From a virus, in the IMG/VR virus record IMGVR_UViG_3300032073_000173, positions 1 to 28,531 of that record: a stretch of DNA of 28,531 bases; one strand, given 5' to 3'. Position numbers and translations under genes: made by a program. Under the pieces are notes generated by a model, which made no database searches, was not told the origin of the DNA, and saw nothing but the letters and a program-made list of their open reading frames with translations. Positions 11,239-23,116 of this stretch are shown here, piece by piece (within the stretch, counting starts at the first letter, position 1; the number at the start of each line of letters is the position of its first letter).

Positions 11239-11246
11239 AATTACAC
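11239..11246 (-). promoter_or_regulatory. GTGTAATT motif, candidate late promoter of the tail operon
   Basis: On the minus strand GTGTAATT is followed by six bases (TAAAAT) and the ATG of the L gene at 11232. The same GTGTAA(A/T)T-N6-ATG layout occurs at 16325, 17466 (minus) and 23116 (minus), and with N8 at 13346. No TTGACA-like box lies upstream. It is the only candidate start signal I see for the whole L-K-I-J-fibre operon. Confidence 0.55.
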
Positions 11247-11256
11247 TTCATTAGTA

Positions 11257-11262
11257 TATAAT
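11257..11262 (+). promoter_or_regulatory. TATAAT -10 box upstream of the rightward gene at 11274
   Basis: A perfect TATAAT sits 11 bases before the GTG start at 11274, in the divergent region between the tail operon and the lysis side. The -35 position is A/T-rich with no TTG. It is weaker than the other class A promoters. Confidence 0.4.
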
Positions 11263-11273
11263 ATAAAAAAGAA

Positions 11274-11984
11274 GTGAAAATTACACAGGTAAAAGAGAGA
11301 GCGGAAGTGTGGCCACATTTTTATGAATTTTGTGTTAAATCTAAACCTTATGATTTCTGTTCCATCAAATCTAAATCCATAAGAGACAATAAAATAAAAG
11401 ATATTTTTACAGAATTTTGTTCTTATAGAGTCTATAAAGCCCAAGAAAACAATACACTTATAGGCTTTTGTTTCATTAAAGAAGAGGAAAAGTGTTTGGA
11501 TGTAGCTTTTATCTTCGGTATTTGGCGAAGTGTAAGAAGTTCTAAACTAATACAGGCAACTCACGAAATATTTAACAAAGCCTTACAAGATTGTAATAAA
11601 AATTATTTAAAAAGCGAAATTCGGCGAACTTTTAAAGTCAAACCTTACAAAAAATGGATTGAAAAGTATGACAAAAGCGCTATTATTTTTAACGACGATA
11701 ACAATACTGTAGTTTGGTGTAATAAAAATATCATGACCGTTAAATTTAAAGTAGTAGGAGCAAATAAAACAACAGAACACCTCATGGGGAAAGAACTTCT
11801 CTTATGCACAACACAAATACATCCTCACGGTTTAATGAGGGAATTCAATGATGGAGAAAAAACTTACTTTTTAGATGAAAAAGGGGTTGACTTCATGTCT
11901 GAAGCGGTTTTACTGAATGGACTTCTCTCTGATAATGAGAACAATGTAGGCAACATCTCTTTACAATTCATACCAAACGAATGA
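11274..11984 (+). CDS. Possible GNAT-like acetyltransferase, phage protein
   Basis: 236 residues starting at GTG. The first 140 residues have an alternating beta/alpha pattern reminiscent of GNAT folds: the strand NTLIGFCFIKEEEKCLDVAFIFG, then helix SSKLIQATHEIFNKALQDC, then the strand KNYLKSEIRRTF, then the helix KPYKKWIEKYDKSAIIF. I see no clear acetyl-CoA R/QxxGxG/A loop, so catalytic activity is doubtful. The last 90 residues (from NIMTVKFKVVG) look like a separate beta-rich domain I do not recognise. It diverges from the tail operon across a 41-bp gap, and its TGA overlaps the next start (ATGA). It could be a tail-associated accessory gene. Function is a weak inference; the gene itself is well supported. 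Confidence 0.6.
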   Translation: MKITQVKERAEVWPHFYEFCVKSKPYDFCSIKSKSIRDNKIKDIFTEFCSYRVYKAQENNTLIGFCFIKEEEKCLDVAFIFGIWRSVRSSKLIQATHEIFNKALQDCNKNYLKSEIRRTFKVKPYKKWIEKYDKSAIIFNDDNNTVVWCNKNIMTVKFKVVGANKTTEHLMGKELLLCTTQIHPHGLMREFNDGEKTYFLDEKGVDFMSEAVLLNGLLSDNENNVGNISLQFIPNE

Positions 11985-12181
11985 AATCAAAACCTATCCT
12001 TTACAGGGTATATACAAAGAAGGGCGACTATCATCATGGGTATAGCGCGAAGTTAGAGGGATCTCGCAAGTGGGCTATTGATTGCGCTAAAACAATTCGA
12101 GGTCGAGTAACAGAGGTCTATGATGATGTAGATGGCCCTGAAGAGTCAATATTTGACTTCAATAAGAAAGCTAAAAGCTAA
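11981..12181 (+). CDS. Small hypothetical phage protein
   Basis: 66 residues, basic N-terminal half (LYRVYTKKGDYHHGYSAKLEGSRKWAIDCAKTIRGRV) and acidic C-terminal end (DDVDGPEESIFDF). No known motif. It starts by ATGA overlap with the acetyltransferase-like gene and ends by TAATG overlap with the spanin-like gene, so it belongs to the same transcript. No membrane segment or signal peptide. Function unknown. Confidence 0.6.
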   Translation: MKSKPILYRVYTKKGDYHHGYSAKLEGSRKWAIDCAKTIRGRVTEVYDDVDGPEESIFDFNKKAKS

Positions 12182-12450
12182 TGCTTTCGATAATTAAATC
12201 TGTTTTAAAATCACTAGAATTATTTTTAAATATTAAAAATAACAAATTCTACTATGATATTCATAGAGAACATAACGAAAGAGAGGACAAACTTATAAAT
12301 GAAATTGAAAAACTTAGGCAAAGTGGCGCTAGTGGGGACGCTGATAGGGCTGACCTCCTGCGCCAGCGACTCGACTCTGAACGTAAACAATTTAAACATC
12401 TATCAACCTTCTACTCTAAGAGTGACGAAGGGGACTCTGATTCAGACTAA
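12181..12450 (+). CDS. Coiled-coil protein, possible inner-membrane spanin (Rz-like)
   Basis: 89 residues. The first 20 (MLSIIKSVLKSLELFLNI) are hydrophobic to amphipathic. They are followed by a highly charged helical stretch with heptad-like spacing (HREHNEREDKLINEIEKLRQ, then RADLLRQRLDSERKQFKHL) and an acidic tail. Length, a membrane-near N-terminus, a coiled coil and a lipoprotein gene embedded in the +1 frame match the Rz/Rz1 arrangement of lambdoid lysis cassettes. The N-terminal segment is weaker than a classic transmembrane helix, so it may instead be a peripheral partner. The start overlaps the upstream stop as TAATG. A holin and an endolysin lie downstream. Confidence 0.55.
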   Translation: MLSIIKSVLKSLELFLNIKNNKFYYDIHREHNEREDKLINEIEKLRQSGASGDADRADLLRQRLDSERKQFKHLSTFYSKSDEGDSDSD

Positions 12451-12541
12451 AGACGGTATTTATAGCCCTCAAACTGATGAAGTCTGGCATTCAGATGCTA
12501 GATATAGACGCTTAGAAAGAGAAATTTACTCGGGAAAATGA
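12299..12541 (+). CDS. Small lipoprotein, candidate outer-membrane spanin (Rz1-like)
   Basis: 80 residues with a textbook lipoprotein signal: MKLKNLGK, hydrophobic VALVGTLIGLTS, and a lipobox LTSC with Cys21. The mature protein is about 60 residues (IYQPSTLRVTKGTLIQTKDG, then DEVWHSDARYRRLERE). It begins inside the preceding gene in the +1 frame and overlaps it by 152 bases, as Rz1 genes overlap Rz. After export and lipidation it would sit in the outer membrane and, if a spanin, pair with the coiled-coil protein to fuse membranes during lysis. It is not proline-rich as in lambda Rz1. The lipoprotein call is strong; the spanin role is inferred from the overlap and the lysis context. Confidence 0.65.
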   Translation: MKLKNLGKVALVGTLIGLTSCASDSTLNVNNLNIYQPSTLRVTKGTLIQTKDGIYSPQTDEVWHSDARYRRLEREIYSGK

Positions 12542-12547
12542 TTTTTA

Positions 12548-12588
12548 GTGTAAATTTTACTTGATAATCATTACAAAACTGTAATAAT
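12548..12588 (+). promoter_or_regulatory. Promoter region of the outer-membrane barrel gene
   Basis: TTGATA (12561-12566), a 16-base spacer, then AATAAT (12583-12588), eight bases before ATG 12597. The 16-base spacing matches four other candidate promoters in the window. A GTGTAAAT motif at 12548-12555 lies just upstream, so this gene may answer to both promoter classes. Confidence 0.45.
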
Positions 12589-12596
12589 AGAAAAAT

Positions 12597-13286
12597 ATGA
12601 AAACACTACTAGTTGGTCTTATGACCGTATTGGGCGTTGCTTTTAGCATCGCAGGTTCTGAAGCTACAACTCTTGCAGATAATATTTCTGTAGAGGCTGG
12701 AGTTTCTTATAGCGATTTTTCAACCAGTGGAGGTTTAGCCGTAAGAGATGAAGCTTTTGGTTATTCTCTACTTCTCGGCGCTCCTGCCGCTGGAGGCGCA
12801 TTGTCTGTAGGTGTAGATCTGTATGAAACAGATGATGACACTGATGCAGATATTTCCGTCTCTTGGGGAAAGCCTGTAAGCATTTTAGGTCAACCTTTGC
12901 AAGCGGAAATTTATTTCCAAAAGATTGAATCTGCTTTTGGAGGTTGGGAAGAAGTCGGTCTTGGACTCACTTATTCTCATGAGCTTGCTGATTTAACAGC
13001 TAGCGTTTGGCATGAGCTTGGTTCTAGCGCTTCTTATGGAGTAGAGCTTACTCTTTCTCGCGCTTTTGAGACCCCAGTGGAGAACCTGACTGTTAGTCCA
13101 TTTATCACATCTAACCTTGCAGATTCCTACAATGCTCTAGAAGCTGGCGCTACTGTTGACTATGATTTCGGAAACGGTCTTTCAGCGGGAGCTAAAGTTT
13201 CTTACAATCATAATGATGTAGATAATTCTCCTTATAGTCTCGACCACGATTGGAATTTCGGGGTAGGGTTTAACTACAAATTCTAA
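12597..13286 (+). CDS. Phage-encoded outer-membrane beta-barrel protein
   Basis: 229 residues. An N-terminal Sec signal peptide is evident (MKTLLVGLMTVLGVAFSIAG, then SEA). The rest alternates hydrophobic and polar residues in amphipathic strands with short Gly/Asp/Ser turns (SVEAGVSYSDFS, FGYSLLLGAP, LQAEIYFQKIE, GLGLTYSHELADLTASVWHE, GLSAGAKVSYNHNDV). It ends FGVGFNYKF, a terminal-aromatic signal used by BamA for barrel insertion. About ten to twelve strands are plausible. Known precedents are Lom and Ail-like proteins and the phage PA-2 Lc porin, which change the host surface or block superinfection. The gene has its own promoter-like signals and is closed by a strong terminator, so it is a single transcription unit inside the lysis region. 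The barrel call is strong; the role is inferred. Confidence 0.75.
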   Translation: MKTLLVGLMTVLGVAFSIAGSEATTLADNISVEAGVSYSDFSTSGGLAVRDEAFGYSLLLGAPAAGGALSVGVDLYETDDDTDADISVSWGKPVSILGQPLQAEIYFQKIESAFGGWEEVGLGLTYSHELADLTASVWHELGSSASYGVELTLSRAFETPVENLTVSPFITSNLADSYNALEAGATVDYDFGNGLSAGAKVSYNHNDVDNSPYSLDHDWNFGVGFNYKF

Positions 13287-13312
13287 CCGTAATTTAAAAA
13301 AATTGTAATTAA

Positions 13313-13338
13313 AGCCTCCCGAAAGGGGGGCTTTTTTT
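13313..13338 (+). terminator. Rho-independent terminator after the barrel gene
   Basis: Stem AGCCTCCC, GAAA tetraloop, GGGGGGCT (one T-G wobble), followed by seven T. It closes the barrel gene and is directly followed by the holin promoter motif. Confidence 0.85.
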
Positions 13339-13345
13339 ATATCTG

Positions 13346-13353
13346 GTGTAATT
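13346..13353 (+). promoter_or_regulatory. GTGTAATT motif, candidate late promoter of the lysis genes
   Basis: GTGTAATT lies eight bases before the holin ATG at 13362, immediately after the terminator at 13313-13338. Because transcription is stopped just upstream, a new start is needed here, which supports promoter activity of this motif. Confidence 0.6.
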
Positions 13354-13361
13354 AATTAAAC

Positions 13362-13679
13362 ATGGAACCTGAAAAGTCTATTTTAAAAGAGTTTTTAAAT
13401 GGGGGATGGTTAGTACCTTTGGTTGGTGCTGCTGCCATGTTTGCTAGACTTTTGTCAGGGAACAACGAACTCTCATTAAAACAACAGTTCAAAAGAGTAA
13501 TTACAGCAGCTATAGCTGCGGGCATTGCTTGGTTTGTATTAGAACAAACAGATGTCTCTTCGCTTACAAAAGCAATCACTTATGGTATTATTGGTGTAAT
13601 TAGTCCAGAAGTAATTAGTGGTATTGTGCGGCTCGGAGAAAGATTCGCTAAAAACCCAGAAAAGTTTATTAAAAGATGA
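13362..13679 (+). CDS. Holin
   Basis: 105 residues with three likely hydrophobic segments: GGWLVPLVGAAAMFARLL (about 14-31), VITAAIAAGIAWFVLEQ (46-62) and AITYGIIGVISPEVISGIV (71-89). It ends in a charged tail (RLGERFAKNPEKFIKR). The layout resembles LydA/superfamily III holins, which open the inner membrane so that the endolysin reaches the cell wall. It overlaps the next gene as ATGA and is two genes upstream of the endolysin. The start is set by the ATG after the GTGTAATT motif. Subfamily is uncertain. Confidence 0.7.
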   Translation: MEPEKSILKEFLNGGWLVPLVGAAAMFARLLSGNNELSLKQQFKRVITAAIAAGIAWFVLEQTDVSSLTKAITYGIIGVISPEVISGIVRLGERFAKNPEKFIKR

Positions 13680-14281
13680 GACCTAAGTTTATTGTTTATT
13701 GTTTAGCAGCGATTTGTTTCGCTTTCGCGTGGAAAGGTTTGATACTCACAGAGGATATCGATTCCACATTAAAAGAAAACGCTCGACAATCAGAGTCGTC
13801 CATCATGGAGATCGGCATGTGTTTTGATTGGTATGGAGTTATTATTGTTAACTCTGTAGTTAAAACTTCACATGGAGTTATTACTCCTCTGGAGATGGTA
13901 GATATACTAGAAGAAGAGAGGGTTTATAAAAACGAGTATTTAGAAGCGTATAAAAAAGATATTACTTCTGATGAAATAGAATTTTCTGAATTTGTTTTTG
14001 AGCAAGAAGAAAAAATAACTCTTTATGTGGATAAACTTATTGAGTGGGGGAAAGCTGGAGAGGTAAACAAAATTAAAGCTTCAGTACCTTTGATGTATGA
14101 AATGACTGATCCAACTATTGATGCTATTAACAATATTATGGATACTAAAATGTATTATAATGAAGCCCAGTCTGAAATTTTAAATGATAAAATAAGCAGT
14201 TACAGAGACTTTATGATATTAACTATTGTTTTATGTTTTGTCATGTCTGTGTGTGCTGGGTTTAGTAGAAGGTGCGCGTAA
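13676..14281 (+). CDS. Two-TM membrane protein with periplasmic helical sensor-like domain
   Basis: 201 residues. One hydrophobic segment at each end (FIVYCLAAICFAFAWKGLIL, 5-24; DFMILTIVLCFVMSVCAGF, about 178-196) flanks about 150 residues rich in acidic helices. The topology is an N-in, periplasmic domain, C-in hairpin, and the domain looks like a four-helix bundle of the 4HB_MCP/Tar type. There is no HAMP, kinase or methyl-accepting domain after the second membrane helix, so it cannot signal as a receptor does. It lies between holin and endolysin, overlapping both (ATGA before, TAATG after), so a lysis role such as antiholin is likely by context. A distant i-spanin is another option. Fold and role are inference. 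Confidence 0.65.
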   Translation: MRPKFIVYCLAAICFAFAWKGLILTEDIDSTLKENARQSESSIMEIGMCFDWYGVIIVNSVVKTSHGVITPLEMVDILEEERVYKNEYLEAYKKDITSDEIEFSEFVFEQEEKITLYVDKLIEWGKAGEVNKIKASVPLMYEMTDPTIDAINNIMDTKMYYNEAQSEILNDKISSYRDFMILTIVLCFVMSVCAGFSRRCA

Positions 14282-14901
14282 TGAATTTTAAAGGTAAAAA
14301 AGAAGTTGTAAAAGCTGTTCAGAAACTTCTCGGGGTTTCTGCTGATGGAGCGGATGGCCCTGTTACTTGGAATGCTATCTTAGCCCAGCTATCAACCAAA
14401 GAGCCTTCGGTTAAAACGGGTAGTATCCCAGAGAAAATGATTCAGTTAGCTCGGGAAGAAATAGGGGTTTCCGAAGTAGATGGCAGTAATTGTGGCCCTA
14501 GAGTAGATGAGTACAAAGCCGCAACTTGGCTAGATGCAGATAAAGGCTGGCCTTGGTGCGCCGCTTTTATTTGTTGGTTAGTGAGAGAGGCAATAAATGG
14601 AGAAGATATTCTTTTTAAGAGGCCGAGAACGGCTGGGGCGTGGGATTTCGAAAACTGGGCTAAACAACAGTCTGGCAAAGGCGTAGAGCTTCGCAAGCCC
14701 ACTAATGAAGATATCAAGGCTGGCGACATTGTTATTTTTTCTTTTTCTCATATAGGTTTAGCGGTTAAAGATATTGATTCTAGTGGCTATGTTGTTACTA
14801 TAGAGGGAAATACGAATGGAGCGGGAAGTAGAGAAGGCGGTTCTGTCTTAGAGAAAAAGCGTCATGTTTCTAAAATAAGAAGCAGAATAAGAATAGTTTA
14901 G
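14281..14901 (+). CDS. Endolysin: peptidoglycan-binding domain plus CHAP amidase/endopeptidase
   Basis: 206 residues from ATG 14281, which overlaps the upstream TAA as TAATG; a GTG nine bases earlier is possible but less fitting. Residues 5-38 (EVVKAVQKLLGVSADGADGP, then VTWNAI) form a PG_binding_1 domain. The CHAP core has catalytic Cys93 in GWPWCAAFICWLV, His157 in FSFSHIGLAV, and EGNTN at 175-179 carrying the third polar residue. No signal peptide is seen, so it depends on the holin for export. It cleaves the host peptidoglycan at lysis. It is the last gene of the lysis operon that begins at 13362. Confidence 0.88.
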   Translation: MNFKGKKEVVKAVQKLLGVSADGADGPVTWNAILAQLSTKEPSVKTGSIPEKMIQLAREEIGVSEVDGSNCGPRVDEYKAATWLDADKGWPWCAAFICWLVREAINGEDILFKRPRTAGAWDFENWAKQQSGKGVELRKPTNEDIKAGDIVIFSFSHIGLAVKDIDSSGYVVTIEGNTNGAGSREGGSVLEKKRHVSKIRSRIRIV

Positions 14902-14929
14902 TAGACATATAGTATTCGCTATATATAAT
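14902..14929 (+). promoter_or_regulatory. Sigma70-like promoter, TAGACA-N16-TATAAT
   Basis: TAGACA (14902-14907), 16 bases, TATAAT (14924-14929), then six bases to ATG 14936. It starts one base after the endolysin stop. A start point seven bases after the -10 would coincide with the start codon, giving a leaderless mRNA. Confidence 0.6.
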
Positions 14930-14935
14930 ACTTTG

Positions 14936-15232
14936 ATGGATAAAATCGACATCAAAGTTAATAGTAACGACATCTTTAATTTTGTTGTTGGAAACTCTGT
15001 TTTTGATCCTATTGAAAAATGTATCGACCCTACAAGGTATGAGGTGTTCGATTCTTTTGTTTATGATAACAACACTCAAGAGAAGATTGTCCAGAGCCAT
15101 CAATATCAAAAGTTTTGTTGGGAAGTTACAAAGCTTAAACAGTTAACCGAAAAAATGGAAAGAAGAGAAATAGAAAGTGTGTGTGAGGAAATTGCTGAAA
15201 TCGCACCTACATATGTTCTTTTAAATGTATAA
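14936..15232 (+). CDS. Hypothetical protein behind an early-type promoter
   Basis: 98 residues from ATG 14936; a TTG one codon earlier is less likely. Two Cys, no membrane segment, a helical C-terminal half (VTKLKQLTEKMERREIESVCEEI). I do not recognise a family. It is the first gene after the TATAAT promoter and is separated by only five bases from the nuclease-like gene, so it probably shares its transcript. Confidence 0.55.
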   Translation: MDKIDIKVNSNDIFNFVVGNSVFDPIEKCIDPTRYEVFDSFVYDNNTQEKIVQSHQYQKFCWEVTKLKQLTEKMERREIESVCEEIAEIAPTYVLLNV

Positions 15233-15237
15233 AAAAT

Positions 15238-15738
15238 ATGACTACATTACCTATCAGAAAAGAAATATATAATTACAGTAAAAAATTAGTAGACGAAAAC
15301 AATTTTGGGCAAAGAGGTAAGGATGATGGTAGTCCTAAAGAACAATTTATAGGTATTCTTTCTGAAAACATGGTAAGGCAATATTTAGGTCATAAATTAA
15401 TTGAGCCTAAAGGTTTTGATGGGGGCTACGATATAATGTATAACGACCTACGCACTGATATAAAATCAATGAATAGAACTGTAGATCCTAAACCTTTTTA
15501 TATAAATAATGTTTTTGATATTCAATTAAAGCACGAGTCTGAAGCTTATATTTTCACTTCGTTAAATACCAAAAAGAAAAACTTATCTATTTGTGGATGG
15601 GTCACCAAAGAAGAATTTAAAAACAGGGCTTCTTTTTATCCAAAAGGCACTGTCAGGATGAGAGGGAGAGAGCCTTTCCCATTAAGAGCAGATAACTGGG
15701 AAATTGAAAACAAAGATCTAAATGAATTTAGTAAATGA
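15238..15738 (+). CDS. PD-(D/E)XK nuclease-like protein
   Basis: 166 residues. A conserved acidic helix (Glu43 in LSENMVRQYLG) is followed by DGGYDIMYNDLRTDIKSM, where Asp65 and Asp74-Ile-Lys76 fit the catalytic D...D-x-K of the PD-(D/E)XK fold. A beta strand with a basic turn then follows (EAYIFTSLNTKKKNLSICGW). Such proteins act as restriction-like nucleases or Holliday junction resolvases on Mg2+-bound DNA. There is no additional DNA-binding domain. It overlaps the pyrophosphatase gene by 17 bases. A second protein with the same motif lies at 16629. The fold call is moderately sure; the substrate is unknown. Confidence 0.6.
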   Translation: MTTLPIRKEIYNYSKKLVDENNFGQRGKDDGSPKEQFIGILSENMVRQYLGHKLIEPKGFDGGYDIMYNDLRTDIKSMNRTVDPKPFYINNVFDIQLKHESEAYIFTSLNTKKKNLSICGWVTKEEFKNRASFYPKGTVRMRGREPFPLRADNWEIENKDLNEFSK

Positions 15739-16324
15739 TATTCCGATAACATCGGACGGTTACGAGCATGTTAATTGTATAGTGGAGATCCCAAAAGGGA
15801 CCAACACTAAATACGAATATGATGAGAATTTAAATATATTTAAATTAGATAGATGTCTTGTTTCTTCTCTCCAATACCCAATCAATTACGGGTTTATTCC
15901 ACAAACGATTGCATTAGATAATGATCCGCTTGATGTTTTGGTTTTTAACCATGACCCCATCGAAAGAGGTAGCCTAGTCTCTTGTCGTATCCTTGGGGTT
16001 TTGGGGTTTGTGGACGGAGGAGAAATTGATAATAAAGTAATCGCAGTTCCTCATTGGTCTCCTATAGAAAAATACAAAACAGTTCATGATATTGAGTCTG
16101 CTCACCTAAAGATATATCGGCAGTTTTTTAAAATATATAAAATCGACAGAGATTCTGACACTAAAGTGGGAGATTGGAAGTCCAAGGGTGTGGCTATAAA
16201 AATTACCGAAGATTCTCATGAAAGATGGAAAAAAGCTAATGCAGAAAAATTTCATAATGAATGGGCAGAAAGGCAGTTTTGGAGAAGAATCAGAGATAAA
16301 AGTTACATAGTTCATCCTGATTAG
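15722..16324 (+). CDS. ppa: Inorganic pyrophosphatase, family I (soluble)
   Basis: 200 residues. It hydrolyses pyrophosphate to two phosphates, pulling DNA and RNA synthesis forward. The family signature DNDPLDV is at 66-72. All catalytic residues of the E. coli enzyme have counterparts: Glu22, Lys30, Glu32, Arg44, Tyr52, Tyr56, Asp66, Asp68, Asp71, Asp98, Asp103, Lys105, Tyr139 and Lys140. YPINYGFIP and VDGGEIDNKVIAVP are typical core motifs. It is therefore expected to be active, not a relic. It overlaps the nuclease-like gene upstream. The C-terminus (from about 160, HERWKKANAEKFHNEWAERQ) extends slightly beyond the minimal core. A cytosolic auxiliary metabolic gene, unusual in phage of this size. 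Confidence 0.9.
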   Translation: MNLVNDIPITSDGYEHVNCIVEIPKGTNTKYEYDENLNIFKLDRCLVSSLQYPINYGFIPQTIALDNDPLDVLVFNHDPIERGSLVSCRILGVLGFVDGGEIDNKVIAVPHWSPIEKYKTVHDIESAHLKIYRQFFKIYKIDRDSDTKVGDWKSKGVAIKITEDSHERWKKANAEKFHNEWAERQFWRRIRDKSYIVHPD

Positions 16325-16332
16325 GTGTAAAT
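16325..16332 (+). promoter_or_regulatory. GTGTAAAT motif, candidate late promoter
   Basis: GTGTAAAT is followed by AACAGT and ATG 16339, the same N6 spacing as at the tail operon. It starts one base after the pyrophosphatase stop, which suggests that the small membrane gene is switched separately. Confidence 0.55.
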
Positions 16333-16338
16333 AACAGT

Positions 16339-16521
16339 ATGGATACTATTCTTCAACTAGTTCAAGATAACCCTTGGTTTGGAGTTGTTACAGCCGCGAT
16401 TGCTTTAGCTTCCGCTGTAGCTGCTGCTACCCCTACCCCTGAAGAGGGATCTGTGTGGTCGAAAATTTATAAATTTATCGATTGGGCCGCATTGAATGTC
16501 GGGAAAGCCAAGCAGAAATAG
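16339..16521 (+). CDS. Small membrane protein, holin-like
   Basis: 60 residues. One hydrophobic segment, WFGVVTAAIALASAVAAATP (13-32), follows a short polar N-terminus. A conserved-looking tail then follows: TPEEGSVWSKIYKFIDWAALNVGKAKQK. I recognise this as a common phage small membrane protein type (NPW...A...PTP..G..W.K.YK..D..ALN.GKAKQK), sometimes annotated as a holin. It carries its own late-type motif upstream and a terminator downstream, making a one-gene unit. It could be a second holin, an antiholin or a structural membrane protein. Confidence 0.65.
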   Translation: MDTILQLVQDNPWFGVVTAAIALASAVAAATPTPEEGSVWSKIYKFIDWAALNVGKAKQK

Positions 16522-16553
16522 TCTACGGATTGTTTTTACATTAATCTCTAGAC

Positions 16554-16581: not shown

Positions 16582-16593
16582 GCTGTATACTTG

Positions 16594-16621: not shown

Positions 16622-16628
16622 ACATCTT

Positions 16629-17165
16629 ATGATTTCTAATAAAGCAAAAGGTTTATCAGGTTTAAGTCATGTGGCTCACACCAAGAAGCTAATGGATGAG
16701 TCTGTTAAAAGGTATCAGCATTCTTGTTTATCAGCAGGTTTATCTATTAAGAAAACAGGTAAAACTCAAGATATCGGACATGTAGATTTTGTAGTAGAGG
16801 GAGAGACTGTTGATTTAAAAGGGTTAAAAAACTCTACGAGGGAAGGTAAAATACTTTTAGAGTTTTTAAATGTGGGGGGGAAAACTGGATGGTGTAATGA
16901 AAGCGGCACTCCTGTATGGATAGCATTTGATGTGGGAGCTTTCTTCTTGCACGTTAAAAACTCCGACCTGTACAACCTAGCAAAAGAAAAATGTGATTTA
17001 AGAGATACAGTTACACGAGTAAATGAGTGTCTGTATAAAGGTTATAGACGCAAAGGAAGAAAAGATTTAATGTCTATGGTGACCCTTCAAGATGTATTTG
17101 TGGGCGAGTGCGAGCATTGGATTTTACCCTATCAGGAATATGAACTTCCTATTGAGAGTGTTTAA
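16629..17165 (+). CDS. PD-(D/E)XK nuclease-like protein (second copy of the fold)
   Basis: 178 residues. DIGHVDFVVEGETVDLKGLKN gives Asp53 and Asp62-Leu-Lys64, fitting the D...(D/E)-x-K core. It is followed by a strand rich in aromatic residues (LLEFLNVGGKTGWC, PVWIAFDVGAFFLHVK) as in phage resolvase-like nucleases. The N-terminal 40 residues are helical and basic. It is not obviously paralogous to the protein at 15238 outside the motif. Its TAA overlaps the TAA of the convergent gene at 17162 in a shared TTAA. It has its own promoter. Substrate unknown; a Holliday junction or replication-fork role is one possibility. Confidence 0.6.
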   Translation: MISNKAKGLSGLSHVAHTKKLMDESVKRYQHSCLSAGLSIKKTGKTQDIGHVDFVVEGETVDLKGLKNSTREGKILLEFLNVGGKTGWCNESGTPVWIAFDVGAFFLHVKNSDLYNLAKEKCDLRDTVTRVNECLYKGYRRKGRKDLMSMVTLQDVFVGECEHWILPYQEYELPIESV

Positions 17166-17452
17166 GGGTAAGCTGTGAAGTTGCCTGTTCCTAAATAACT
17201 AAAACCCCCATCAAAGGGTCTAATTAATAATCCTGTTGTCGCTGGAGCGCTTCCCGTCCAAGATGATTCAAGGTTAAAAACATTTCGGTTATATTCTCTA
17301 ATAAGGTGTTGAGCATCCCATCCACCTCCTAAGTTTCCTGTCCCTTGCCCACTAAGCAAATACATGCCAGTTACCTCGGCCCGAAAAGTCGCCCAATCAC
17401 CAGATTGTATTCCCGTGCTAGAATGTATTTCACTCAATAAGTCGTTCGGCAT
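17162..17452 (-). CDS. Isolated minus-strand late gene, possible small virion protein
   Basis: 96 residues, no Cys and no membrane segment. Rich in Gly, Ser, Thr and aromatics (SGQGTGNLGGGWDAQHLIREY, then RPFDGGFSYLGTGNFTAYP), a composition like that of tail and decoration proteins. I recognise no family. It is transcribed against its neighbours. The ATG at 17452 is preceded by GTGTAAAT-N6, the same motif as the tail operon, so I infer late expression and a structural role. The end overlaps the convergent nuclease-like gene by four bases. Confidence 0.6.
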   Translation of the reverse strand: MPNDLLSEIHSSTGIQSGDWATFRAEVTGMYLLSGQGTGNLGGGWDAQHLIREYNRNVFNLESSWTGSAPATTGLLIRPFDGGFSYLGTGNFTAYP

Positions 17453-17458
17453 ACTAGA

Positions 17459-17466
17459 ATTTACAC
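17459..17466 (-). promoter_or_regulatory. GTGTAAAT motif, candidate late promoter
   Basis: On the minus strand GTGTAAAT, then TCTAGT, then ATG 17452. It serves a single isolated gene, so it cannot be a by-product of operon structure. Confidence 0.6.
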
Positions 17467-17493: not shown

Positions 17494-17521
17494 TTGACGC
17501 ACTTATAATTGTAAGTATAAT
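17494..17521 (+). promoter_or_regulatory. Strong sigma70-like promoter, TTGACG-N16-TATAAT
   Basis: TTGACG (17494-17499), 16 bases, TATAAT (17516-17521), six bases to ATG 17528. It is the best consensus match in the window and the likely start of the long early transcript through the small-protein array. Confidence 0.75.
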
Positions 17522-17527
17522 CCCTCC

Positions 17528-17659
17528 ATGCTATTATGGATATTTATTGTCACCGCCTGGATAGCGTTTGTCCTATTAATTTGTCGGTGTATGGGTATTA
17601 ATTCTGCACATGACCGCTTTATCGAGGAACAACAAAGAAAAAAAGAAGAAAATAAATGA
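17528..17659 (+). CDS. Small single-pass membrane protein (43 aa)
   Basis: MLLWIFIVTAWIAFVLLICR forms one membrane helix, followed by a short charged helix ending EEQQRKKEENK. The start is six bases after a strong -10 box. The stop overlaps the next start (ATGA), the same coupling as in neighbouring genes, which supports it as real despite the small size. Probably N-out or N-in with a cytosolic basic/acidic tail. It could be a host-takeover peptide. Function unknown. Confidence 0.6.
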   Translation: MLLWIFIVTAWIAFVLLICRCMGINSAHDRFIEEQQRKKEENK

Positions 17660-17889: not shown

Positions 17890-17898
17890 CTGTAATAT

Positions 17899-18006: not shown

Positions 18007-18236
18007 ACGCTTCGACTCTTTGTGAAGAAGCTATTAAGTTTGATGGCTTAGATAGGTGCTTGATCGGGACAGATCAAAGAGGGTATCTTGTTTATTCCTT
18101 TCAAAAAATAGTTGACTACTTTCAGAATGAGGGTATGAGTTTAGATGATGCCGTTGAATATACAGAGTTCAATGTTGTAGGAATAAAACCCGACCACTAT
18201 ACAGTGGTCTATGATTTAATAAAAAATGAAATTTAA
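17997..18236 (+). CDS. Conserved hypothetical phage protein
   Basis: 79 residues, acidic. FDGLDRCLIGTDQRGYLVYS is followed by KIVDYFQNEGMSLDDAVEYTEFNVVG, a pattern (LD.C.vG...R...lvYs..kiid.f...GMs.eeA.Ey.eFN..G) that I recognise from many phage hypothetical proteins. Soluble and probably an early protein. Overlaps the next gene by 11 bases. Confidence 0.72.
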   Translation: MEIDASTLCEEAIKFDGLDRCLIGTDQRGYLVYSFQKIVDYFQNEGMSLDDAVEYTEFNVVGIKPDHYTVVYDLIKNEI

Positions 18237-18528
18237 TTACTATAAAATAGGATACGGTATATTTAGTTTGCTTGCAGGACTAACGGTTGGTGTTCTTTTG
18301 GCATTATTTGTGGGGTTATCTACTTTTTTTAATTCTCTTATTGCATTTCCTGTGCAAATATACAAGCAATGCGTGCAAGTAGCCCATACTAAAAGAATGG
18401 AAAAGCTTTTTGGCCTCTCTGAAAATCATCAATTTGGAGATTTTAAACAACCAAGTGAAGAATCTATTTGGGATAAACACATAGAAAGAATGGAAGAGAA
18501 GAAAGCCCGCAATCAAAATGAAAATTAG
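18226..18528 (+). CDS. Membrane protein with N-terminal hydrophobic hairpin
   Basis: 100 residues. A long hydrophobic stretch from about 9 to 42 (YGIFSLLAGLTVGVLLALFV, then GLSTFFNSLIAF) could form one long or two short membrane helices. It is followed by a charged cytosolic tail (HTKRMEKLFGLSENH ... ERMEEKKARNQNEN). No known family. It overlaps both neighbours, so it belongs to the 17528 transcript. Confidence 0.6.
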   Translation: MKFNYYKIGYGIFSLLAGLTVGVLLALFVGLSTFFNSLIAFPVQIYKQCVQVAHTKRMEKLFGLSENHQFGDFKQPSEESIWDKHIERMEEKKARNQNEN

Positions 18529-18610
18529 TAATGAGTCCCTCTCGATCATACTAACTATTTTAATTGGTTTGGTTATAGCATTGTTTACTTTAATAATTAA
18601 GCCCTACTAA
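18518..18610 (+). CDS. Micro membrane protein (30 aa)
   Basis: MKISNESLSI then ILTILIGLVIALFTLIIKPY: one membrane helix occupying most of the peptide. It overlaps the end of the preceding gene by 11 bases. The reading frame is the only good one in the 100-base gap before 18629. Function unknown; small size limits certainty. Confidence 0.45.
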   Translation: MKISNESLSIILTILIGLVIALFTLIIKPY

Positions 18611-18628
18611 CTAAACACATAAACACAA

Positions 18629-18811
18629 ATGAATAATAAAACACTAGCCACTATTAACGCGCTTTGTATTGTTTTTCCGATGCTTTTAGGGGCAGGGGAA
18701 GAACTCACAGGGAAACCATTAACCAATCCATTATTAATTGGTGTCGTCGGTTTATTGATGATTATTTTTGGTCTATGGACTTCGATCAGACTAGGTAAAC
18801 AGCCTGACTAG
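18629..18811 (+). CDS. Small two-TM membrane protein
   Basis: 60 residues, with hydrophobic segments at 8-22 (TINALCIVFPMLLGA) and 33-54 (NPLLIGVVGLLMIIFGLWTSI) joined by EELTGKPLT. Ends with a basic tail. No motif. An 18-base gap follows the preceding micro gene and a hairpin follows it. Confidence 0.55.
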   Translation: MNNKTLATINALCIVFPMLLGAGEELTGKPLTNPLLIGVVGLLMIIFGLWTSIRLGKQPD

Positions 18812-18817
18812 TATTAA

Positions 18818-18848
18818 GGCGGTCGTAGTAATAAAATCTGCGACCGCC
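18818..18848 (+). repeat. Perfect 8-bp inverted repeat upstream of the MazG-like gene
   Basis: GGCGGTCG (18818-18825) and CGACCGCC (18841-18848) enclose a 15-base AT-rich loop. The right arm ends seven bases before ATG 18856. No T-run follows, so it is not an ordinary terminator. It could be an operator or an RNA stem controlling start access. Confidence 0.6.
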
Positions 18849-18855
18849 ATTTAAA

Positions 18856-19260
18856 ATGAAGCTTGATAAACTTAAATACCAAATAGAAGCCGAGAGTCCA
18901 TATAATGATGGATGGACTAAAGATTTTTACCAAAAAATAATAAACACGATGAAATCGAAATCGTTCGAAGAACTAAATATAGATGTCCTTAAATGGGCAG
19001 AAGAAAGAGGGATCTTTACTAAAGGAGATTCTTTGGCTCAATTAGCCAAGACTCAAGAAGAGTTAGATGAAACAATTCAAGCAGTTAAAGATCAAGACGA
19101 TGTAGAAATTGCTGATGGTATTGGTGATATGTTGGTTACTATTATTATCGCCGCTAAAATGACGGGGTTCGATCCTGTTGCTTGTCTACAACAGGCATAC
19201 AATGAGATTAAAAACAGAAAAGGTAAAATGATTGATGGTCAATTTGTAAAAGATGTCTAA
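18856..19260 (+). CDS. mazG: MazG-like NTP pyrophosphatase
   Basis: 134 residues. After a 40-residue N-terminal extension, the all-alpha NTP-PPase core shows KTQEELDETIQAVKDQD (the ExxE pair) and EIADGIGDMLVTIIIAAK (the ExxD partner), then the typical ending LQQAYNEIKNRKGKMIDGQF with FVKD. MazG enzymes hydrolyse (d)NTPs to NMP and pyrophosphate; phage copies are linked to nucleotide pool control or ppGpp lowering. The pyrophosphate produced would feed the phage pyrophosphatase at 15722. It overlaps the next gene by eight bases. Confidence 0.85.
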   Translation: MKLDKLKYQIEAESPYNDGWTKDFYQKIINTMKSKSFEELNIDVLKWAEERGIFTKGDSLAQLAKTQEELDETIQAVKDQDDVEIADGIGDMLVTIIIAAKMTGFDPVACLQQAYNEIKNRKGKMIDGQFVKDV

Positions 19261-19759
19261 AAAAACTTTAATTAAATCTTTAGCGGGTGGTGTTTTGTGC
19301 GGGTTTTTAATATACGCATTCATCCAAATCTTTTTATTCTTTATCGAGGATGAATTAGATTATGATGAAATGATCGATGGAATTATTGAAAATCGTTCAT
19401 CTGTATTAGAGGATAAATATAGTATAAAAGAAGAGCAAGTTCACCCCATTGATTTCGACGATCCAGAGGTGGCGATGGTCACATTCAAATATGAAATTAG
19501 AATACAGAACTCATACGATGATGAGCAATTAGAAGTCTTGCCCACTATAGAGGATGTTTTAGATTATCTAAGTGAGTATAGCAGATTTCATGAAGACTTG
19601 TATGTATATGATATGGAAACAAGAGAATTAGTTCTTGATTCCAAAACTTATGGCCAAATTAGACAGGAGTTATTAAACCACCAAGATTTATTGATCGACG
19701 CTTCTAATAATCCTGACAAATATACAGACGAAGAAATATTCCAACTGCTTGTAGACTAA
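19253..19759 (+). CDS. Single-pass membrane protein with acidic domain
   Basis: 168 residues. A basic N-terminus (MSKKTLIKSL) and one helix AGGVLCGFLIYAFIQIFLFF (11-30) are followed by about 135 mostly acidic residues with mixed alpha/beta pattern (EDKYSIKEEQVHPIDFDDPE, then VAMVTFKYEI). Positive-inside rules put the acidic part in the periplasm. No family recognised. It overlaps MazG before and the next gene after (TAATG). Confidence 0.6.
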   Translation: MSKKTLIKSLAGGVLCGFLIYAFIQIFLFFIEDELDYDEMIDGIIENRSSVLEDKYSIKEEQVHPIDFDDPEVAMVTFKYEIRIQNSYDDEQLEVLPTIEDVLDYLSEYSRFHEDLYVYDMETRELVLDSKTYGQIRQELLNHQDLLIDASNNPDKYTDEEIFQLLVD

Positions 19760-20067
19760 TGAAATATATACTTATATCCGTATGCATTATAACTGTTACT
19801 AGTTTAATGTATTTTAAAAGAGAAAAAATTACTTTTGATAAAGAACTGGTGGTGACTTATAACAAACAAAATAAAGAAATCCCAGTGAAGGTTACCCTTA
19901 CTAAATACCAACTCGAAAAGATGCTGAACATGGTTGACGAAGAGTATGGGTATGGTGGTCCTGCCGCACCGCAAGATAGCTTTACCTTTACTTCAATAGC
20001 TAAAGGCAATCAGCATTCAGAAGAATATAGTATTTCTTCTACGCATTTAGCTAGGAAGCCGAAATAA
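19759..20067 (+). CDS. Hypothetical membrane-anchored or exported protein
   Basis: 102 residues. MKYILISVCIITVTSLMYF is a signal peptide or anchor. A beta-rich part follows (VTYNKQNKEIPVKVTLTKYQ), then a Gly/Pro turn (GYGGPAAPQDSF). It is coupled by TAATG to the preceding membrane protein, so both may act together at the inner membrane or in the periplasm. Unknown function. Confidence 0.58.
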   Translation: MKYILISVCIITVTSLMYFKREKITFDKELVVTYNKQNKEIPVKVTLTKYQLEKMLNMVDEEYGYGGPAAPQDSFTFTSIAKGNQHSEEYSISSTHLARKPK

Positions 20068-20068
20068 A

Positions 20069-20629
20069 ATGGCACGTAAATTTAACCCAATGCCACCGCT
20101 AGAAGAATTAAAAGAATTCTTAGATTATAATCCAGATACAGGGATATTCACTTGGATAAAAAAACTACATAGAAGAATGCAAGACCGACTTATCGGTCAA
20201 GAAGCAGGGGTAATGAACTCATGGAATTATTATATACAAATTAGATTTAAAGGTCACCAATATCGAGCGCATAGATTAGCTTATTATATGCATCATGGTA
20301 TAGACCCACTGGAAAAATTTGTAGACCATATAGATGGCGACAAGAGTAATAACAAGATTAATAATTTAAGATTAGCGACTAAATCTCAAAATGGTAGAAA
20401 TCGTGTTAATTTACCTAGTAATAATACTAGCGGTGTAATAGGAGTGTGTTGGGATAAAAAACCTAAAAAGTGGAAAGCATTAATTATGATTAACGGGAAA
20501 ACAAAACATTTAGGGTATTTCATTAATAAAGAAGATGCAATAAAAGCTCGTAAAGAAGGAGAGATAAAATATTTTGGTGACTTTCGGCGCAGAGAGCCAG
20601 AAAAAGCAATAGAATATCTTAAAAAATGA
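20069..20629 (+). CDS. HNH homing endonuclease with AP2 domain (copy 1)
   Basis: 186 residues. Order: an N-terminal NPDTGIFTW segment, HRLAYYMHHG (66-77), the HNH core VDHIDGDKSNNKINNLRLAT (85-104, His87 catalytic), then an AP2-type DNA-binding domain SGVIGVCWDKKPKKWKALIM ... LGYF (121-151). Such free-standing endonucleases cut intron-less or intergenic sites and copy themselves. It directly precedes a diverged copy of itself and is coupled by ATGA. It breaks the otherwise functional early block and looks like an insertion. Confidence 0.9.
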   Translation: MARKFNPMPPLEELKEFLDYNPDTGIFTWIKKLHRRMQDRLIGQEAGVMNSWNYYIQIRFKGHQYRAHRLAYYMHHGIDPLEKFVDHIDGDKSNNKINNLRLATKSQNGRNRVNLPSNNTSGVIGVCWDKKPKKWKALIMINGKTKHLGYFINKEDAIKARKEGEIKYFGDFRRREPEKAIEYLKK

Positions 20630-21138
20630 AACATAAACCATTACCACCACTAAAACAATTAAAAGAATTCTTACATTATAATCCAGATACAGGGATATTA
20701 ACTTGGAAGAAATCATGTAATCAGGTAAATGTTAGTCAAGAGGCAGGAACAGTAGATAGTGGTGGGTATAGGCACCTTATATTTAAACGTGAAAAGTGGC
20801 AAACTAACAGACTGGTTTATTATATGTATCATGGTACAGACCCCTTAGAAAATCAGGTAGATCATATAAATCATGATAAAGCAGACAACAGGATTGAAAA
20901 TCTTAGATTAGCTAGTATCTCACAAAATAAGAAAAACTCTAGGATATATAATAATAATAGTTCTGGTGTAACTGGAGTCTATTGGTATCCAAAAAGTCAA
21001 AAATGGACTGCCAAAATTTGTATTAATAGCAACGGTAAACTCACCCACCTAGGATACTTTACTAATAAAGAAGATGCAATAAAAGCCCGTAGAGAAGCAG
21101 AAATAAAATATTACGGTGAGTTTCGGCGCAGAAATTAA
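20626..21138 (+). CDS. HNH homing endonuclease with AP2 domain (copy 2)
   Basis: 170 residues with the same domain order: NPDTGILTW, HNH core VDHINHDKADNRIENLRLAS (78-97, His80), then AP2 SGVTGVYWYPKSQKWTAKI. The second copy has TNRLVYYM where the first has AHRLAYYM, so a usually conserved His is replaced by Asn. The N-terminal 40 codons and the C-terminal 30 codons are nearly identical in DNA sequence between the copies, which implies recent tandem duplication or conversion. The main catalytic His is kept, so it may still cut. Confidence 0.88.
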   Translation: MKHKPLPPLKQLKEFLHYNPDTGILTWKKSCNQVNVSQEAGTVDSGGYRHLIFKREKWQTNRLVYYMYHGTDPLENQVDHINHDKADNRIENLRLASISQNKKNSRIYNNNSSGVTGVYWYPKSQKWTAKICINSNGKLTHLGYFTNKEDAIKARREAEIKYYGEFRRRN

Positions 21139-21141
21139 TTT

Positions 21142-21279
21142 ATGAAAGAAGAAGAAAAAAGTATTTGTTGGCTTGGTGTTATCCCAGAAGGAATGAAAGA
21201 TGAGATGCGCTATCCAACAGAAGAAGAAATAGATAAATTTTTAGAAGAAGCAGAAAATGACGAGCAAACAACTAATTGA
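21142..21279 (+). CDS. Small acidic protein (45 aa)
   Basis: MKEEEKSICWLGVIPEGMKD then EMRYPTEEEIDKFLEEAEND. Very acidic and soluble. It starts three bases after the endonuclease stop and overlaps the next gene by 23 bases. The reading frame is typical of the neighbouring genes in composition. No family. Confidence 0.5.
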   Translation: MKEEEKSICWLGVIPEGMKDEMRYPTEEEIDKFLEEAENDEQTTN

Positions 21280-21688
21280 ACTACATGATCAAACCTGCAA
21301 ATCCTGTAGGGACATCATGCTGAAGAAAAATAATGATTATACTGGCGGCAAGAAAGCTACAGATATATTTGCTAATTTTAATTCATCTAAAATTCTAGAC
21401 ATCCATCCTGTGCAGGGATTACTCTTGCGTGTGATAGATAAGGTGCAGAGAATCCGCTCCTTTACTAACGACAAAGAACTATCTGTTCCAAATGAGACAG
21501 TGGAGGACGCTTGCGATGATATTGTAAACTATGCCATCCTTGCTAAAGCAATGCTCTTGGATGAAAGAGCTAAGAAACTTCCAACTGGAGAAGAAGAGGT
21601 CACAGCAGAAAAGCGTATGAATGTTATAGGTAAAAATGGGAATGAAGGTTTACACTACTCCCAGATCGAACAAGAAAATGCCAAATAA
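21257..21688 (+). CDS. DUF1599 / nucleotide modification-associated domain 1 (Nmad1) protein
   Basis: 143 residues. CKSCRDIMLKKNNDYTGG, then FANFNSSKILDIHPVQGLLLRVIDKVQRI and ETVEDACDDIVNYAILAKAM are the core of the DUF1599 family. The family has been linked by comparative genomics to DNA base modification or hypermodified nucleotide handling. It is helical and soluble. The C-terminus from QIEQENAK is encoded by a copy of the dispersed GATCGAAC...CAAATAA repeat, whose TAA is the stop codon. It overlaps the cupin gene by 11 bases. Family call is good; the role is not proven. Confidence 0.75.
   Translation: MTSKQLIELHDQTCKSCRDIMLKKNNDYTGGKKATDIFANFNSSKILDIHPVQGLLLRVIDKVQRIRSFTNDKELSVPNETVEDACDDIVNYAILAKAMLLDERAKKLPTGEEEVTAEKRMNVIGKNGNEGLHYSQIEQENAK
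21664..21688 (+). repeat. Dispersed GATC...AAATAA repeat, copy at end of Nmad1 gene
   Basis: GATCGAAC, ten bases, CAAATAA (25 bp). Same orientation and layout as copies at 22672 and 22703 and in 27251-27376. It covers the last codons and stop of the gene. Confidence 0.6.
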
Positions 21689-22019
21689 TAAGTATAAAAT
21701 ACATGATGTAGGAGGCTCTGTAATAAAAGATAACAAAACTTATCTTCTTAAGGATAATAAAACATTAAAGAATCTTGTATTAACTAGCACATTGCTTAAG
21801 CCTGACAAAGAAACACGGGGACACTCCCATGTAGGACAGGAAGAAATTTATTATTTTATTGATGGCGAAGGAGAAATGATTCTAGGAGAAGAATCTTTCG
21901 ATGTTGTAGCTGGAGATGTCGTTCTCATACCAGATGGAGTCTTTCACAAAGTAATTAATCCTAGCTTAAACCGATTCTTATATTTTGTTTGCGTATTTGA
22001 CGGCAAGAGAAATCATTAA
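21678..22019 (+). CDS. Cupin-domain protein
   Basis: 113 residues from ATG 21678, giving an 11-base overlap with Nmad1; ATG 21636 would add 14 residues of no evident value. Cupin motif 1 is TRGHSHVGQEEIYYFIDGEG with His-x-His and Glu, and motif 2 is GDVVLIPDGVFHKV. The four metal ligands are therefore present. Small single-domain cupins may be sugar or keto-acid isomerases, dioxygenases or ligand sensors. Next to an Nmad1 protein a role in nucleotide or base modification is possible but unproven. Confidence 0.82.
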   Translation: MPNNKYKIHDVGGSVIKDNKTYLLKDNKTLKNLVLTSTLLKPDKETRGHSHVGQEEIYYFIDGEGEMILGEESFDVVAGDVVLIPDGVFHKVINPSLNRFLYFVCVFDGKRNH

Positions 22020-22205
22020 ATGTATTTTAGAAAAGAGATCGAAGCCATCGCAGAATTAGCGAGCGAAGAACATCCGATTAAGATTGCTCACTGGGCAATT
22101 AAAAATAAAAAAGAAAGACTAGAAGAGGTTTTTCAGTTCAGATCAAAAACATTTAAAGATCTAGAAGATTATCTTGATTACTGTGTCAAAGACTCTATAA
22201 GTTAA
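22020..22205 (+). CDS. Small helical hypothetical protein
   Basis: 61 residues, helical and charged (EIEAIAELASEEHPIKIAHW, then AIKNKKERLEEVFQF). It starts on the base after the cupin stop. No family or membrane segment. Confidence 0.6.
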   Translation: MYFRKEIEAIAELASEEHPIKIAHWAIKNKKERLEEVFQFRSKTFKDLEDYLDYCVKDSIS

Positions 22206-22207
22206 CT

Positions 22208-22696
22208 ATGAATATATTTGTTGTAGATGCCAACCCCAAGACCGCAGCACAACAATTGTGCGATAAGCACGTTGTTAAGATGATTTTAGAGTCAGCACAG
22301 ATGCTTTGCGCTGTCTTTCCCAATGGCGATGCTCCATACAGGAGAGCGTTCTACAATCACCCTTGCACCAAATGGGCTAGAGAGTCAGTAGAGAACTACG
22401 AATGGTTAATAGATCATGCTTATGCCATGTGCCAAGAGTATACTAGACGTTACGGTAAGGTGCATAAGTCTCTTGATGCTATCCAATGGTGTGGATCTAA
22501 TTATCATAAGCTAAATATACCACGCAAGGGATTGACTAAATTTGCACAAGCAATGCCCGAACAATACAAAAACGATTGTTCAGTTACAGCTTACCGTTCT
22601 TATTATAACGGGGAGAAAGCTTACTTCGCTAAGTGGAGTAAGAGGCAAACCCCTTCTTGGTTTAGTCCCCAGATCGAATCATCTTGCACCAAATAA
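22208..22696 (+). CDS. Conserved phage protein resembling pyrimidine dimer glycosylase (Pyr_excise) family
   Basis: 162 residues. MNIFVVDANPKTAAQQLCDKHVVKMILESAQML matches, in layout, the N-terminus of Pyr_excise proteins (A..LD.kr..K...E..Q.l). It is followed by NHPCTKWARESVENYEWL, EYTRRYGKVHK and YRSYYNGEKAYFAKWSKRQT with a Trp/Phe end (PSWFSP), motifs shared by many marine phage homologues. If the family holds, it would act on damaged or modified bases. The last eight codons coincide with a dispersed repeat. The conserved phage family is sure; the enzymatic call is tentative. Confidence 0.6.
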   Translation: MNIFVVDANPKTAAQQLCDKHVVKMILESAQMLCAVFPNGDAPYRRAFYNHPCTKWARESVENYEWLIDHAYAMCQEYTRRYGKVHKSLDAIQWCGSNYHKLNIPRKGLTKFAQAMPEQYKNDCSVTAYRSYYNGEKAYFAKWSKRQTPSWFSPQIESSCTK

Positions 22697-22727
22697 GTGC
22701 CAGATCGAATGATATTTTTCCAAATAA
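22672..22727 (+). repeat. Two tandem copies of the GATC...AAATAA repeat
   Basis: GATCGAAT-N10-CAAATAA at 22672-22696 and again at 22703-22727, 31 bases apart. The first overlaps the 3' end and stop of the preceding gene. The second is noncoding and is followed by about 45 bases of A/T-rich sequence. Confidence 0.6.
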
Positions 22728-22772
22728 ACGATTAAAAATTAATTAAAAAAAATAAAAAGTTAATAAAATTAA

Positions 22773-23102
22773 TTAAATACTTTTTTTAATGTAACCTAAC
22801 AATTTTATTTGTGTAATTAGATTCGAAACATTAGTAACACAAATCTTTTTTGTCGTTACGGTGAGCGGATAATTCATCTCCGTATCTAATCTTATTCCTT
22901 CTTCTTTTATCTCTGGCGAAATGATTTCTGACACGAAATCGTATAAACCTTTTTCTTTTAATAGAGAATAGAAGTAATCTCTTTGTTCTTTCTGCGCTTC
23001 GACGATGACATCCATGCCATAATGAAGCTTGGCTACGCTTGTCAGATACCTAAAATATAATCCTTCGTTTGTGGTGAGTTCAGAAACTACTATTAGGGTC
23101 AT
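22773..23102 (-). CDS. Isolated minus-strand late gene, function unknown
   Basis: 109 residues, mixed alpha/beta: TLIVVSELTTNEGLYFRYLT, then DVIVEAQKEQRDYFYSLLKE and KGLYDFVSEIISPEIKEEGI. No catalytic motif or membrane segment that I can defend. The middle (LLKEKGLYDFVSEIISPE) faintly resembles HAD-type regulators, but the DxD motif is missing. The ATG at 23102 is preceded by GTGTAATT-N6. It is divergent from the AT-hook/RuvB block and convergent with the glycosylase-like gene. Confidence 0.6.
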   Translation of the reverse strand: MTLIVVSELTTNEGLYFRYLTSVAKLHYGMDVIVEAQKEQRDYFYSLLKEKGLYDFVSEIISPEIKEEGIRLDTEMNYPLTVTTKKICVTNVSNLITQIKLLGYIKKSI

Positions 23103-23108
23103 ACATTT

Positions 23109-23116
23109 AATTACAC
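23109..23116 (-). promoter_or_regulatory. GTGTAATT motif, candidate late promoter
   Basis: On the minus strand GTGTAATT, then AAATGT, then ATG 23102. It is the fifth example of the motif near a start codon, and it lies in an 87-base divergent gap that also holds a class A promoter on the plus strand. Confidence 0.6.

Follow-up and report, generated by a model that had tools for sequence, protein, structure and literature searches.

A conserved GTGTAA element as the probable −10-like core of late, phage-sigma-dependent promoters in uncultured marine phages

The IMG/VR virus record IMGVR_UViG_3300032073_000173 is a fragment of its genome, and the whole 28.5-kb record (28,531 nt) is the window analyzed here. 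Several of its start codons are closely preceded by the octamer GTGTAA(A/T)T, which a preliminary description of the sequence had proposed as a late promoter giving leaderless mRNA. Based on a comparison with related viral loci, GTGTAA(A/T)(A/T) is probably the −10-like core of late (phage-sigma-dependent) promoters in widespread uncultured marine phages with genomes of about 100 kb. The motif, its conservation, its gene specificity, its spacing from the start codon, the lack of a −35 box and the presence of two sigma-like genes, called sigma A and sigma B here, are all directly observed. In the literature searched, mostly outside subscription journals, we found no earlier report of the motif or of the combination of a phage sigma with leaderless mRNA.

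In the window, GTGTAAWT (W is A or T) occurs 11 times against 2.43 expected, and 11 copies were reached in none of 100 shuffles. The motif ends exactly 6 nt 5′ of the ATG at 11232 (minus strand), 16339, 17452 (minus) and 23102 (minus), and 8 nt before the ATG at 13362; the window scan therefore bears out all five sites and spacings of the preliminary description. GTGTAAWT-N6-ATG occurs four times; in 300 dinucleotide shuffles it occurred 0.05 times on average and never more than once per shuffle, and given 11 motifs the probability of at least four at exactly +6 is 2e-5. The remaining copies lie away from starts, most of them within coding sequence. The five sites and the neighboring terminator are as follows.

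11239–11246, minus strand: motif GTGTAATT, N6 to the ATG of the minor tail protein L gene, at the head of the tail operon that runs from 11232 down to 1
13311–13334, plus strand: intrinsic terminator, directly 5′ of the holin promoter
13346–13353, plus strand: motif GTGTAATT, N8 to the ATG at 13362, kept in 14 of 14 orthologues
16325–16332, plus strand: motif GTGTAAAT, N6 to the ATG at 16339, kept in 14 of 16 orthologues
17459–17466, minus strand: motif GTGTAAAT, N6 to the ATG at 17452, kept in 8 of 11 orthologues
23109–23116, minus strand: motif GTGTAATT, N6 to the ATG at 23102, kept in 8 of 9 orthologues

The motif at 11239 is found within 32 nt of the ATG in 14 of 15 orthologues, with 56 instances across all loci. 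Two copies directly follow a terminator or a stop codon, as had been described: 12 nt lead from the terminator stem to the motif at 13346, and the motif at 16325 abuts the TAG stop (16322–16324) of the pyrophosphatase gene. A further GTGTAATT, at 11279–11286 (minus), might have formed a tandem promoter, but this reading was dropped because the copy reaches into the opening codons of a divergent gene at 11274 and one relative (G015) has lost its GTG.

About 160 related viral loci were gathered with three window proteins, including contigs of 104, 96, 90 and 67 kb. No cultured phage is close to this group: DNA comparison gave no match, and the tail proteins alone are distantly similar. Across 166 loci, 77 copies of GTGTAAWT have an ATG at +6 and 44 have one at +8, compared with 0 at +5 and 2 at +7. 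GTGTAAWT-N6..8-ATG is present in 19 of 20 large contigs, in which the reversed pattern is almost absent. For an unbiased census, genes were called in 34 contigs and one contig of a metagenome-assembled genome (MAG) and clustered, and 5-mers conserved within 32 nt of the ATG were counted; the gene calls are mechanical, and relatedness inflates the raw counts, so that family counts are safer. GTGTA and TGTAA lead the list of conserved 5-mers. GTGTA is kept in 17 of 118 gene families, compared with 0 families for each of the control 5-mers ATGTG, CACAT, GTGAT, GATGT, TGGTA and GTTGA and 3 for TACAC. One family (‘MSVIFKVVG...’) was left out of the motif families, its conservation being that of in-frame coding sequence.

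The group consensus consists of GTGTA, a following A (93%) and then mostly A or T, giving GTGTA(A)WW. The core of the originally described GTGTAA(A/T)T is conserved across the group, whereas its terminal ‘WT’ varies. Across the examined families, the five core columns show no variation, compared with an average of 56–94% in 25 flanking columns. The distance from GTGTA to the ATG is mostly 9–11 nt, corresponding to N6–N8 after the octamer, with minor groups at 13–16 and 22–26 nt. No −35 box was found in the gene families of the census, in which every upstream column holds about 0.3 bit or less, and the reported absence of this box is thereby confirmed. In diverged relatives, whose sigma A is 53–62% identical, the PhoH, portal, structural and head genes are likewise preceded by GTGTAATATAA or GTGTATAATA; the motif core evidently persists alongside sigma A in these phages.

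Most of the genes that carry the motif have virion, packaging or lysis functions. Tail and lysis carriers are the tape measure gene (two clusters), the tail-tip L gene, the holin gene and a tail-fibre-like gene. The head carriers, assigned from weak profile matches and gene order, comprise a portal-like protein behind TerL, a virion structural gene and two genes behind a putative major head protein. PhoH also carries the motif and heads an operon of PhoH, a Zn-ribbon protein, sigma A, a 349-aa protein and TerL. Further carriers are the ribonucleotide reductase small subunit, a DUF5824 gene and a Clp ATPase. The upstream neighbor lies on the opposite strand for 32% of the carriers, compared with 10% of other genes. 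Judged by these annotations, the carrier class is made up of virion and some metabolic genes and is best named late or phage-sigma-dependent; because the ribonucleotide reductase small subunit, the Clp ATPase and PhoH are among the carriers, a more precise name than ‘late’ might be ‘phage-sigma-dependent (middle and late)’.

The same phages also have sigma70-type promoters of the form TTGCG or TTGAC-N16–18-TATAMT. Their −10 box ends exactly 6 nt 5′ of the ATG in 63 cases, compared with 0 in shuffled sequence. Two of them lie in the window.

17494–17530, plus strand: sigma70-type promoter TTGACG-N16-TATAAT-N6-ATG, early class
23153–23192, plus strand: sigma70-type promoter TTGCGC...TATAAT-N9-ATG, before the gene at 23190

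In one large relative (G003), an early-looking module (37.6–43.3 kb; L178–L179) carries only sigma70 signals, and the virion genes carry GTGTA. Counted per gene, 205 genes have GTGTA only, 112 have sigma70 only and 5 have both, where about 15 would be expected if the signals were independent; late and early signals avoid each other. A −10 box normally lies six nucleotides from the start point. Transcription is therefore predicted to start at or beside the A of the ATG in both classes, and since the early promoters share this spacing, the GTGTAA motif would be a −10 element and the mRNAs would be leaderless or nearly so. Leaderless promoters are recognized by a −10 element 6–7 nt from the start codon, and N6–N8 is found in most families; Shine–Dalgarno signals upstream of the starts are barely above the control. 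The proposal of leaderless late mRNA is thus supported in most families by a spacing like that of the early −10 boxes, but not for every leader, since some sites lie 13–26 nt away. The N6 spacing predicts that early mRNAs are leaderless too. The sigma B mRNA appears to be a clearly non-leaderless early transcript: in G003 (L177:5940–6162) and in the orthologues of eight other contigs, it has a leader of about 110 nt that opens, right behind the −10 box, with the conserved hairpin CCGTGAAACGG. This leader ends at a GTG or TTG start and looks like a stabilizing or regulatory 5′ element.

Sigma A is a Sigma70_r2 protein of 225–253 aa that is present in every contig with the PhoH head operon and was found in about 300 viral contigs, and it lies downstream of the GTGTAA promoter in this operon together with the terminase. 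Its region 2 matches PF04542 with 24.2 bits (cut-off 24) in G001, and a scan of 11 diverse members gave a match with E ≤ 1 in each, the diverged members scoring under the cut-off; the Pfam r4_2 match is weak and seen in 2 of 11 members. A structure model of sigma A, built from an alignment of 30 sequences (A3), has confident helices in regions 2 and 4. The best matches of this model in the PDB are extracytoplasmic function (ECF) sigma factors (SigH, RpoE), and its C-terminal residues 156–229, with a predicted local distance difference test score of about 85–93, superpose on a sigma −35-binding domain with a template modelling (TM) score of 0.70 by target length and a root-mean-square deviation of 2.1–2.9. 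The model thus presents sigma A as ECF-like, with regions 2 and 4 in one chain. A small Zn-ribbon gene (L166:3916–4254 in G001) overlaps the 5′ end of sigma A and adjoins it in relatives; a sigma partner or an anti-sigma is a possible role for its product.

Sigma B, with 203 aa, contains the sequence YDPxRxTKFSTHLANQTKWKCLN, which by eye resembles sigma region 2.3–2.4, and has a region-4-like end. It was found in nine large contigs and in 2 of the diverged clade, and its gene has a near-perfect sigma70 promoter (TTGACA-N16/17-TATAAT). Neither protein had a tblastn match in 50,697 phage records. Comparison of sigma A with sigma B by hhalign gave nothing, and that of either with T4 gp55 gave a probability of about 0–1%, the profiles being shallow in both cases; T4 gp55 matches phrog_234, and sigma A and sigma B do not.

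The proposed late promoter, recognized via a phage factor, is thus supported by the virion-gene specificity, by the conservation in diverged phages and by the position at the start of transcription units, and the spacing shared with sigma70 −10 boxes and the two phage-encoded sigma-like proteins also speak for such a factor. The alternative of an altered or phage-encoded RNA polymerase found no support; a search for a T7-type polymerase (PF00940) gave no match, yet the control genomes gave none either. We infer the transcription start site, the timing and the identity of the sigma that reads GTGTAA as follows. Sigma B and the other early genes would first be transcribed by the host RNA polymerase with its own sigma70, which would use the TTGCG/TTGACA-N16/17-TATAMT promoters. 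The host core polymerase would then be redirected to GTGTAA elements, with no −35 box needed, by a phage sigma, which could be sigma B, sigma A or both in series. Sigma A itself would be produced from a GTGTAA promoter, and the order of this circuit is likewise deduced. Transcripts would begin about 6–8 nt downstream of the motif, at or a few bases from the ATG, so that most late mRNAs would have no leader, or one that could not hold a Shine–Dalgarno site. A bolder scheme can be offered only tentatively, and we hold it to be rather doubtful: nearly the whole transcriptome would be leaderless, sigma70 and phage-sigma promoters both being locked about 6 nt from the ATG, and the late genes would be read by a single-chain two-domain phage sigma, in a cascade from sigma B to sigma A, without a −35 box and without the clamp machinery of T4.

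Several points weigh against a phage-sigma-dependent late promoter. Some motif sites lie 13–26 nt from the ATG, and metabolic genes (ribonucleotide reductase small subunit, Clp ATPase) are among the carriers. The Foldseek E-values of sigma A are only about 0.01 and its whole-chain TM score is about 0.25, the latter because the model leaves the two domains unplaced relative to each other, and the identity of sigma B rests on weak profile matches. In addition, GTGTAA might belong to the promoters of an alternative sigma factor of the host, which the phage would exploit late, with the phage sigma-like proteins acting elsewhere. An alternative sigma could read a promoter without a −35 box. However, the phages own two sigma-like genes, one of them in every head-operon contig, and the motif is rare in a 4.1-Mb MAG linked to a relative (G046), with 26 copies against 13 of the reversed control, a linkage in which the binning may be wrong; we regard a host sigma as unlikely. 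Recruitment of unmodified host sigma70 polymerase by a phage DNA-binding activator on GTGTAA, in the manner of lambda CII, Mor or C2, would agree with the lack of a −35 box, as at activated promoters, and a small Zn-ribbon protein is encoded beside sigma A. The motif, however, ends where the early −10 box ends and so occupies the −10 position, leaving no room for a separate sigma70 −10 box, and this makes an activator a distinctly improbable explanation.

The position 6–8 nt 5′ of the ATG is also where ribosome signals sit, and Shine–Dalgarno signals are weak in these phages; GTGTAA could thus be a translation-initiation signal in the mRNA, a ribosome element of another kind, and no promoter. 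Such a signal would hardly be confined to 17 of 118 families, mostly of virion genes, with the carriers clustered at transcription-unit starts. Early genes show a sigma70 −10 box at the same spacing instead, some sites stand 13–26 nt from the ATG, and GTGTAA does not pair with the anti-Shine–Dalgarno sequence CCUCC, so we consider this reading very improbable. Both the genome and the octamer are AT-rich, which might suggest chance or a compositional artefact, yet the shuffles, the reversed controls and the conservation refute this for the whole set and leave it a negligible likelihood.

A diverged member of the group (L313, CAKZOO010000020.1) lies in a Flavobacteriaceae MAG, in which the binning may be wrong. 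A Bacteroidota host, considered from one MAG contig, is disfavored, given the classical sigma70 promoters of sigma B and of the early genes and the lack of a clear enrichment of the motif in that MAG.

The window genes downstream of the motifs and their neighbors are listed below.

3524–8182, minus strand: central tail fibre J gene, in the same operon as L (phrog_31, 5e-99)
9166–11232, minus strand: minor tail protein L gene, first of the tail-tip operon of L, K-like, I-like and J genes (PF05100, 2.3e-39; phrog_18, 4e-50)
13362–13679, plus strand: holin gene (phrog_6384 holin, 4e-4)
14272 or 14281 to 14901: endolysin gene, 3′ of the holin gene (phrog_9589, 3e-15)
16339–16521, plus strand: 60-aa gene, holin-like by eye alone, no Pfam match
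17162–17452, minus strand: 96-aa gene, alone on the minus strand, no Pfam match
22773–23102, minus strand: 109-aa gene, no Pfam match

The gene at 23102 had been called a holin in the preliminary description, which the family search does not support. Further genes of the window are of interest in their own right. The phage carries an inorganic pyrophosphatase (15722–16324; PF00719, 6e-48) and a tRNA-Leu (TAA) gene (27169–27241). A 229-aa protein encoded at 12597–13286, adjoining the lysis genes, has a signal-peptide-like start and by eye a beta-barrel-like sequence, an unusual cargo; its gene has a sigma70-like promoter and, 41 nt upstream, a GTGTAAAT that is kept in three relatives. The adjacent genes at 20069–20629 and 20626–21138 begin alike; HNH endonuclease families match the former, of which the latter resembles a tandem copy. 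A RuvB/clamp-loader-like AAA ATPase at 23423–24343 (phrog_168, 9e-16) is 75–99% conserved across the group and would be relevant if late transcription were clamp-dependent as in T4.

Taken together, early TTGCG-TATACT-N6-ATG and late GTGTAA-N6..8-ATG would form a regulatory grammar that lets the sequence itself reveal start codons and the timing of genes. This applies to a phage group of hundreds of marine contigs that has no cultured member. The group would also provide a new pairing of a phage sigma with its promoter, and the phage mRNAs, apparently leaderless almost throughout, bear on how the host starts translation.

Known systems share parts of this arrangement. In extended −10 promoters of sigma70 (TGnTATAAT), the −35 box is dispensable, and GTGTAA resembles them in having TG followed by a TA-rich element with no need for a −35 box. 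It differs in that GTG directly abuts TAA, that the invariant core is GTGTA and that GTGTA is confined to the late genes of phages in which ordinary sigma70 promoters also operate. The late promoters of phiKZ and AR9 (TATG; AACA-N6-TA/G) are likewise short, late-specific motifs without a −35 box; however, they are read by phage multisubunit polymerases, and the AR9 leaders of 26–491 nt are not leaderless (PMC5312081), whereas leaderless mRNA is predicted here. In phiEco32 and 7-11, a phage-encoded sigma reads a short −10-type motif (TAATGTATA; TG-TGATGT-TATA) and sigma70 serves the early genes (PMC4331800). All three features have counterparts here, with sigma A and sigma B as candidate readers, but the GTGTAA consensus differs from TAATGTATA, and sigma A and sigma B have no sequence match to any cultured phage.

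The late promoters of T4 (TATAAATA) are 8-bp −10-like elements without a −35 box, read on the host core polymerase by a phage sigma, gp55, with gp33 and the clamp gp45 (PMC1524935, PMC2988020). The similarity extends to the short element before late genes and to a clamp-loader-like gene (phrog_168). A search for the gp45 clamp (PF02916) gave one sub-threshold match of 13 bits, in G021, and no clear clamp. In contrast to T4, the consensus is GTGTA(A)WW instead of TATAAATA, the tail genes are lambda-like and leaderless mRNA is expected from the spacing between motif and ATG. Neither sigma A nor sigma B matches gp55, and sigma A holds regions 2 and 4 in one protein; the absence of a fused late sigma from T4-like phages has been remarked in a review (PMC2988020). 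Because both the consensus and the sigma sequences differ, we place the system under neither T4 nor phiEco32/7-11, although by analogy it appears to work like the T4 late and phiEco32/7-11 sigma promoters.

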